The position numbers and the translations under genes were made by a program. From Streptomyces sp. NBC_01454 (GTDB taxonomy: Bacteria; Actinomycetota; Actinomycetes; Streptomycetales; Streptomycetaceae): 64,000 bases of DNA. The notes under the pieces were generated by a model. It was not told the DNA's origin. It searched no databases and saw only the letters and a program-made list of their open reading frames with translations. The DNA lies in the NCBI RefSeq assembly GCF_036227565.1, contig NZ_CP109460.1:3844001-3908000 (forward strand). Reading direction: 5' to 3'. This document shows positions 33,057-34,784 of the stretch, one piece after another (position 1 is the first letter of the stretch; each line of letters starts with the position of its first letter).

Positions 33057-34709
33057 TCACGCCAGCAGGGTGACGTCCAGCTGCCCGTCCGCGTACTGCT
33101 TGCGCAGCACCTTCTTGTCGAACTTGCCCACGCTCGTCTTGGGCACCGCCGGGATCACCGCCCAGCGCTCCGGCAGCTGCCAGCGCGCGACCCGCTCGCC
33201 GAGGAACGCCTTCAGCTCCTCGTAGCCGATGCTCACGCCGTGGTTGAGGACCACCGTCGCCAGCGGCCGCTCGCCCCACTTGTCGTCCGGTACGGCGACC
33301 ACCGCGGCCTCCGCCACATGCGGGTGTGCCATCAGGTGGTTCTCCAGCTCGACCGAGGAGATCCATTCGCCACCGGACTTGATGACGTCCTTGGCGCGGT
33401 CGGTCAGGGTCAGGAAGCCGTTCGGGGTGATGGTGCCGACGTCGCCGGTGCGCAGCCAGCCGTCGGGGCTGAACTTGTCCTCGGGGCGCAGCGGTTCACC
33501 CTGCGCGCCGCCGTAGTAGGCACCGGCGATCCAGGGCCCGCGGACCTCCAGTTCGCCGGCGGCCCGGCCGTCCGCGGGGAGCCGTTCACCGTCCGGGCCG
33601 ATCAGCCGGGCCTCCACGGAGGCGGGGAAACGGCCCTGCGTGGCGCGGTAGGCCCACTCCTCGTCGCCGCTGACCCCGGCCGGCGGGTGCGCGACGCTGC
33701 CCAGCGGGGAGGTCTCGGTCATGCCCCAGGCGTGGACGACCCGGATGCCGTGGCGCTCCTCGAAACCGCGCATCAGGGCGGGCGGGCAGGCCGAGCCGCC
33801 GATGACAACCGTCCGCAGACAGGCCACGTCCCGCTTCGTGGCGTCGAGTTCGGCGAGCAGGCCCTGCCAGATGGTGGGGACGGCGGCGCCGATGGTGGGC
33901 CGTACGGTCGCGATCATCTCGGCGAGCGGCGCGGGCTGCAGGAAGCGGTCCGGCATCAGCAGGGAGGCGCCGGCCATGAACGCGGCGTGCGGCAGGCCCC
34001 AGGCGTTGACGTGGAACATCGGCACCACCGGCAGCGTGATGTCGCGTGAGGTGAGGGCGAACGCCTCGGCGGAGTTGACCTGCATCGAGTGCAGGTAGAG
34101 CGAACGGTGGCTGTAGAGCACGCCCTTGGGGTCGCCGGTGGTCCCCGAGGTGTAGCAGAGCGCCGCGGCCTCCCGCTCGTCGATCTCCGGCCAGGCGTAG
34201 CTCTCCGGTTGCCCGGCGAGCAGCTCCTCGTAGTCGTGCACGCGGACCGTGGCGCCGGCCAGTACGGAGCGGTCGCCGGGGCCGACGACCACGACGTGCT
34301 CCACATGGGGCACCTGCCCGAGCAGCGGGGCGAGCAGCGGCAGCAGGCTGCCGTTGACCAGCACGACCCGGTCCTGGGCGTGGTTGATGATCCACACCAA
34401 TTGCTCGGCGGGCAGCCGCAGGTTGAGGGTGTGCAGCACCGCCCCCATGGAGGGGATCGCGAGGTAGGCCTCCAGGTGCTCGGCGTTGTTCCACATCAAC
34501 GTCCCCAAAACACTTCCCTCGGTCACTCCGAGTTCGTCGCGTAGGGCGTTGGCGAGCTGGGCTGCGCGGTTGCCGATCTCGGCGAATGTGCGGCGATGGG
34601 GCTCAGGCTCGCCGGTCCATGTCGTCACGGTTGCCTGTCCGTGGACGGTGCGGCCGTGCTCAAGAATCCGGCTGATCAGAAGTGGTACATCTTGCATCGT
34701 GCTATACAC
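33057..34709 (-). CDS. long-chain fatty-acid/acyl-CoA ligase
   Basis: 550-aa ANL-superfamily enzyme that activates a carboxylic acid with ATP and CoA. The P-loop [11 protein letters not shown] is at residues 186-196; later motifs are [20 protein letters not shown] and [13 protein letters not shown], with the catalytic Lys in [13 protein letters not shown] 34709 is chosen because AGGAGG precedes it by 4 nt; an ATG four codons later has no site. The first ~70 codons use many A/T-ending codons, and from about 34495 onward almost none. The gene abuts the prophage, and the first part may be phage-derived. Confidence 0.92.
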
Positions 34710-34754
34710 AGATCCTCCTGAGAGCGCCGTCGCCACTTCGCGACCAGTGGGAAG

Positions 34755-34784
34755 ATTCTGCGCACATACCACACGGTATGTCAC
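34755..34784 (-). promoter_or_regulatory. promoter with internal palindrome driving the acyl-CoA ligase
   Basis: On the minus strand GTGACA (34784-34779), an 18-nt spacer and CAGAAT (34760-34755) make a plausible promoter about 40 nt before the ribosome-binding site. The 18-bp palindrome ACATACC-ACAC-GGTATGT (34764-34781) overlaps the spacer. The -35 box overlaps the integrase stop codon. GGTATGT also recurs in the prophage control region near 37.2-37.4 kb. Confidence 0.5.

Follow-up and report, generated by a model that had tools for sequence, protein, structure and literature searches.

The 64,000-nt window analysed here (G000:C1:3844001-3908000; contig NZ_CP109460.1 of Streptomyces sp. NBC_01454) contains a prophage inserted in an acyl-CoA ligase gene. 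Comparison of its borders with those of related elements makes it highly probable that this temperate phage restores the gene it enters by carrying a host-type promoter, a ribosome-binding site (RBS) and 68-72 ligase codons of its own. In the proposed mechanism, a serine integrase would insert the phage at codons 67-69 of the host gene; the phage carries a copy of the ligase front end (hereafter, the patch), and its attachment site (attP) lies where that copy ends. Integration would exchange the host front end for that of the phage and leave the ligase reading frame intact; the original host front end would remain at the right junction (attR), and excision would reverse the exchange. We infer that the hybrid ligase is expressed and active, probably under the host's own, normal regulation. 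In the free phage, the segment would amount to a dead-end open reading frame (ORF) of about 78 codons, which is probably kept intact because it matters in the lysogen.

Prophage borders and the phage-supplied front end

Border comparison delimits a prophage of 38,451 bp, the two ends of which share the 7 bp core CACATCA (Table 1), inside a gene whose product carries the AMP-binding (PF00501) and AMP-binding_C (PF13193) domains. The initial annotation of the window had put the attachment site inside the ligase near 34495, which falls exactly within the left core (attL), and had placed the right prophage end beyond the window, where the same core is indeed found. When the ligase was used as a query on its own 9.46 Mb genome, a second ligase 5' end, 69% similar, was retrieved 38 kb away: attR holds the displaced original host promoter together with the first 67 ligase codons. 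Joining the outer flanks rebuilds an empty site with an uninterrupted ligase of the usual host sequence, and joining the inner flanks yields an attP in which the inverted arms AGTGTTTT and AAAACACT surround the core. No such arms occur in the rebuilt bacterial site (attB), the pattern typical of large serine integrases. The AGTGTTTT arm is itself written in ligase codons, occupying the patch codons S-V-L, where hosts differ and commonly end in R-V.

The integrase possesses the Resolvase (PF00239, 79.9 bits) and Recombinase (PF07508, 34.2 bits) domains, and a zinc ribbon (PF13408) scores 20.1 bits, below its cut-off of 25.3. Among named relatives of the integrase, the nearest is in S. sabulosicollis, and among annotated phages those of Streptomyces come nearest. 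Tests on 10 prophage ORFs recognized portal, head morphogenesis, major head and tape-measure proteins. As a control, G004:C3, an element with a 65-66% identical integrase and a different target, shows these same arms without a ligase patch; its attP arm starts 11 bases past the integrase stop. This 37,780 bp contig (L115, L116) looks like an unintegrated circular phage genome, as its joined ends form attP.

Table 1. Positions of the features discussed (window coordinates unless another sequence is named)
Feature	Position	Strand	Remark
Host part of ligase, about codon 69 to stop	33057..34491	-	in frame with the phage-supplied 5' end
attL core CACATCA	34492-34498	.
attP half-site in ligase codons	34492..34517	-	AGTGTTTT arm encoding S-V-L-G-T-L-M; pairs with AAAACACT across the core in attP
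Phage-supplied ligase codons 1-68, counted from ATG	34494..34697	-
Probable true start, GTG at 34709	34698..34709	-	four codons ahead of ATG
RBS AGGAGG	34714..34719	-
-10-like CAGAAT	34755..34760	-	consensus match only
Operator-like palindrome CATACC-N4-GGTATG	34765..34780	.	between -35 and -10
-35-like GTGACA	34779..34784	-	overlapped by integrase stop TAG
Large serine integrase	34784..36409	-	ends with TAG 34784-34786, directly upstream of the ligase ORF
Prophage body	36406..64000	.	continues to 72943 outside the window
attR core	L009 12943-12949, equivalent to window 72943-72949		38,451 bp from the attL core, 8.9 kb past the window end
L097 region	L097 1371-1543, G000:C1 about 587600		TetR-family gene, operator-like site, GDSL lipase gene

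That the integrase ends directly upstream of the ligase had been noted initially, as had a shift in codon usage, and the hand count offered for it proved exact: A/T third positions occur in 20/68 of codons 1-68 and in 1/50 of codons 69-118 (23/402 over codons 69-470). The displaced host 5' end has 6/67, and 27 host ligases of the same genus average 7.3/68 with a maximum of 14; these 27, taken among the matches listed, are the 30 listed loci minus three with a prophage, from a search in which 117 of 121 genomes gave a match. Of 68 aligned amino acids, 46 are shared by the phage-supplied and the displaced N-terminus, and the similarity of the two segments reaches a z of 13.7 against 500 codon shuffles. 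The GTG at 34709 lies 4 nt past AGGAGG and fits better as a start than the ATG at 34697, so that the segment comprises either 68 codons (ATG start) or 72 (GTG start). The same position is GTG in 12/12 phage loci and, among the listed hosts, GTG in 23/27 and TTG in the other four. Ratios of nonsynonymous to synonymous change (dN/dS) among phage patches range from 0.05 to 0.23 (28 pairs, codons 1-57; L017 was left out for its length and L047 as identical to L038), and the three viral-contig patches alone differ at proportions of 0.41 of synonymous (pS) and 0.086 of nonsynonymous (pN) sites. Judged by these values, the phage-carried ligase segment shows purifying selection.

A related integrase was detected at E <= 1e-60 in 24 of 392 genomes of the genus, and a ligase 5' end follows it in six of these (G000, G351, G019, G139, G266 and G036); S. 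sabulosicollis (L165) provides a seventh case. A second, displaced ligase 5' end was present in all five of the other prophage genomes searched, one of which (G019) carries a third, paralogous ligase match, and a single copy in each of five genomes without a phage at the locus, G048 with its weak integrase remnant (see below) among them. In the prophage genomes the two copies lie 40.6 kb (G351), 38.6 kb (G019), 38.9 kb (G266) and 39.0 kb (G036) apart, or on different contigs (G139), and in the displaced copies the host codons lead directly into the right attP half. A crossover in the coding 5' end, with the frame restored by DNA of the element, is found here and replicated in further prophage genomes. 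This accords with the initial proposal of a 5' replacement carried on the phage arm, which contributes a promoter-like sequence, an RBS and the initial codons; in this genome and in five other prophage genomes, the host 5' end has been displaced.

Among 15 viral-contig loci with the integrase, five have the isolated first ~71 codons and six lack them, the remaining four ending at or before the integrase stop and hence being uninformative. A search with the ligase segment retrieved six viral contigs, one of them (L162) new. In L036, L037, L038, L039, L047 and L162 the ORF stops a few codons beyond attP, and the arms AGTGTTTT...AAAACACT were located by script in L036, L037, L038 and L047; L038, L039 and L047 have the same 68 codons. 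On this comparative evidence, the ligase front end is a feature of the phage and no local accident.

Promoter architecture, probable scars and rival explanations

A promoter and a strong AGGAGG had been claimed between integrase and ligase, and both are there: a scan of positions 34600-35000 returned a single promoter-like site, GTGACA-N18-CAGAAT (34784-34755; mean of 0.0 in shuffles), and no terminator-like site. The integrase stop TAG belongs to the host promoter string TAGTGACAT, and it coincides with the TAG of the host-type string in 11/12 loci. The palindrome between the -35 and -10 elements, which may be a repressor-binding site, occurs exactly at two places in the 9.46 Mb genome, namely the phage-supplied and the displaced promoter (reversed control pattern, 0). 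In a comparison of 110 nt (the promoter of L150, outside that stretch, was read separately), TAGTGACATACC is conserved in 10/10 phage copies, the exact palindrome in 7/10, the GGTA of its second half-site in 9/10 and a -10 of AGAATC or ACAATC type in 9/10. The exact palindrome is also present in 8/27 host promoters among the matches listed and in 5/6 displaced promoters, the sixth (G036) being degenerate in the same way as the phage copy of that genome. The phage promoter is a copy of the host one, palindrome included, which makes host control likelier than phage control. With up to three mismatches, 34 forward operator-like sites were counted in the genome vs 11 and 18 in control; ORFs were inspected around six of the 20 such loci listed. 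One site (L097 1501-1519, two mismatches) is flanked by a TetR-family gene (start 1371, PF00440) on one side and by a GDSL lipase gene on the other, and an ORF judged by eye to be SGNH-hydrolase-like lies near another (L105).

The phage-type half-site pattern is found in 8/392 genomes. Three of these are the prophages of G000, G019 and G351, and in the other five (G028, G023, G353, G390 and G368) there is no integrase match next to the ligase; the first four are also outside the 24 integrase-positive genomes. Over the last 34 nt before the core, G028 scores 1.00 for a phage copy and 0.50 for the best host, vs 0.76 and 0.97, respectively, over the first 34 nt. A comparable switch is seen in G353 (last part, phage 0.85 and host 0.53; first part, phage 0.85 and host 0.97), and the last 42 nt of G023 score 0.93 for phage and 0.60 for host. 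G390 is phage-like at both ends (phage 0.91, host 0.79; phage 0.88, host 0.56). As a control, 21 host genes of equal length were compared over their last 44 nt, and in none of them did the phage come closer than the other hosts. The phage-type alleles of these four phage-free genomes are probably scars: displaced and phage copies form direct repeats around the prophage, and a crossover between them would predict the form seen in G028. G390 possesses a whole patch-like allele that groups with the patches in the tree, and its neighbourhood, by eye, resembles the flank of attR in the genome studied here (G000); the allele may be a scar or represent a donor lineage. G368 was dropped as ambiguous (phage 0.71, host 0.62 over the last 34 nt), with an integrase elsewhere in the genome.

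In a tree built without the attP arm, the main patch clade does not include M_L012 or M_L034, the latter standing beside the G048 gene and the displaced copy of G036. Holding all 11 patches in one clade gave a P value of 0.034 in the approximately unbiased test (p-AU), or 0.214 without L034, for groups that were named after inspection of the tree. A single origin of all ligase patches is accordingly disfavoured and at least two captures are weakly favoured by these sequences. All patches stand on one side when the arm is included, possibly because they share it. Separately, a weak match to the C-terminus of the integrase (residues 483-531, 43%) lies just upstream of a host-type ligase in G048:C147 (L057/L121) and is a possible prophage remnant.

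Restoration of the gene under host regulation has to be weighed against other explanations of the same locus. The ligase could instead have been brought under phage control, by phage factors acting at the promoter or by read-through from the integrase gene, as the initial annotation had considered possible. The promoter directly after the integrase, the 22/68 aligned positions at which the hybrid N-terminus differs and the lack of a terminator-like site in the scanned interval fit such lysogenic conversion, which we nevertheless regard as unlikely, since the promoter is a copy of the host's with the palindrome at the same place. Still less probable is a useless segment gained passively through imprecise excision or recombination. 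More than one capture, as indicated by the post hoc p-AU test above, would suit that account, which is opposed by the conserved promoter and by the low ratios of nonsynonymous to synonymous change, seen among divergent phages and also within the three viral-contig patches by themselves. It is scarcely credible that the 5' segment belongs to the host, as a native allele or through an ancient duplication, with the A/T bias a product of chance: viral contigs carry the isolated segment beside an intact attP, the displaced host copy lies at attR and the codon bias differs sharply. What speaks for it is G390; the initial annotation would have taken an unchanged upstream sequence in a relative lacking the phage as decisive against a replacement, and the G390 allele comes close to this in being very similar, but it is not identical and is read here as a scar.

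Several observations nonetheless weigh against restoration under host control. Related prophages (L021 and L027) enter an inner region of the same ligase without any replacement, and the gene is for that reason not indispensable. The integrase frame of L012 continues beyond the promoter, L037 has no -10-like string, and the palindrome is imperfect in 3/10 phage copies and inexact in 19/27 listed hosts. The TetR-family gene of L097 is a candidate regulator of the ligase promoter, only a lead and no identification. Finally, the segment was found in no annotated phage record: a query of 232 residues, the first 68 included, gave seven matches, all below 60% identity and none in a Streptomyces phage.

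Apparent replacements of other lengths and related phages

A longer patch is carried in G036, where the integrase is 45-48% identical, the crossover lies near codon 232 and ~230 ligase codons are supplied. This inner part of the ligase is also where L021 and L027 insert unpatched. Patch and displaced copy share 169/230 amino acids, and over codons 69-230 A/T third positions number 32/162 in the patch vs 13/162 in the displaced copy. No viral contig matched the 230-codon version, a negative that says little because the known 68-codon contigs were missed by the same search. In the same genome, an attP-like junction lies between the copies (C1 24435-63643 and C2 4476829-4480280; L117, L148, L149), and the two contigs may reflect a double lysogen, with two prophages in tandem at this inner site.

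At the other extreme, the integrases of L015, L030 and L044 adjoin a gene for exodeoxyribonuclease III (xth, named by eye from its N-terminal sequence). In these and in their relatives (viral contigs L041-L043 and L049, and phage Vondra), attP-like sequence overlaps what resembles an RBS, followed by TTG as start and by ~6 codons in agreement with the exodeoxyribonuclease III N-terminus. In three genomes without a phage at xth, the gene starts with ATG or GTG and has a different upstream sequence. This is suggestive of a short, ~6-codon 5' replacement in the xth-associated phages.

A more general proposition, which we hold tentatively and at slightly less than even confidence, is that one actinophage integrase family repeatedly evolves fitted prostheses, with the host operator kept, an attP arm written in codons and chimeric alleles left behind upon phage loss. 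The stretch upstream of the attachment site would be captured from hosts: RBS, start and ~6 codons at xth, promoter plus 68 or ~230 codons at the ligase sites. Retention of the host operator would make lysogeny regulation-neutral. Loss of the phage by homologous recombination would leave a chimeric allele whose attB is now a hybrid site, and the cured cell may consequently be immune to reintegration. If true, such phages would pass different 5' ends of one metabolic gene from host to host.

SV1 and its relatives belong to the same integrase family (about 50% identity), with attP downstream of the integrase gene and a CoA-ligase gene as target. SV1 vectors enter SCO4383, a putative 4-coumarate-CoA ligase (4CL), and SV1 is stated to encode no SCO4383 fragment (PMC4068962). 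In L019, L123 (SV1), L125 (SoJo) and L130 (Picard), a conserved 14-codon ORF (MQARLIV..PAATL) lies just past the integrase stop and precedes an ATG close to attP. In L019 the frame of this ATG leads into the C-terminal part of 4CL; L026 shows no such arrangement, and we therefore make no claim on SV1-type phages. The observation might be relevant to the paradox of SV1 lysogens that PMC4068962 describes.

Comparison with known integrating elements

Integrating elements are known to patch the 3' ends of their target genes, and a few conjugative or mobilizable elements patch 5' ends. Elements of the IMEVchUSA3 type in dusA are a precedent for 5' replacement with a crossover in the coding 5' end, and expression of dusA after their integration has been shown, at a level lower than native (PMC8409611). 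IMEVchUSA3 is a mobilizable element and no phage, and the available sections of that source mention neither a copied host operator nor host scars (PMC8409611). The SXT integrative and conjugative element (ICE) in prfC is another precedent for 5' replacement, by a conjugative element with a tyrosine recombinase (PMC8409611, PMC2654960), in contrast to the serine integrase and phage structural genes seen here. In MabA1 prophages of Mycobacterium abscessus the 5' end of a tRNA gene is rebuilt and a promoter must be supplied, and attB-29, the site of a serine integrase, lies across a translation start (PMC8092301, PMC10654092 for the former; PMC10654092 for the latter). The serine-integrase phages of the M. 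abscessus survey disrupt their target genes (PMC8092301), and a long protein-coding replacement is not described in the accessible portions of PMC8092301 and PMC10654092. Streptococcal ICEs in ftsK, ebfC and rbgA insert at the 5' end, sometimes with a different upstream sequence, and leave the N-terminus unchanged, and those with serine integrases exchange 3' ends (rumA) or disrupt genes, as far as the available text of PMC4701971 reports. The comparison with phage R4 made in the initial annotation stands as an analogy, R4 having a serine integrase and an attB in a fatty-acyl-CoA synthase gene (PMC6549336). It fails as kinship: the best integrase stretch is 28% over 152 amino acids (E 0.001), and the 25 kb of R4 inspected, out of 51 kb, contain no ligase 5' end.

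The literature consulted, mainly open-access papers, yielded no earlier account of this ligase case; what is new is 5' replacement of this type in temperate phages with serine integrases. The phage patches preserve the architecture of the host promoter, and their lengths appear to span ~6 to ~230 codons. They offer a testable system in which to ask how attP evolves within codons and if a lysogen can leave regulation of its target gene unchanged. They also call for caution with int/attP vectors derived from such phages: a vector that lacks the patch may inactivate the target gene. As a minor observation on the prophage itself, a tRNA-Arg gene (anticodon CCT) lies among its head genes at window positions 55131-55223 (-).
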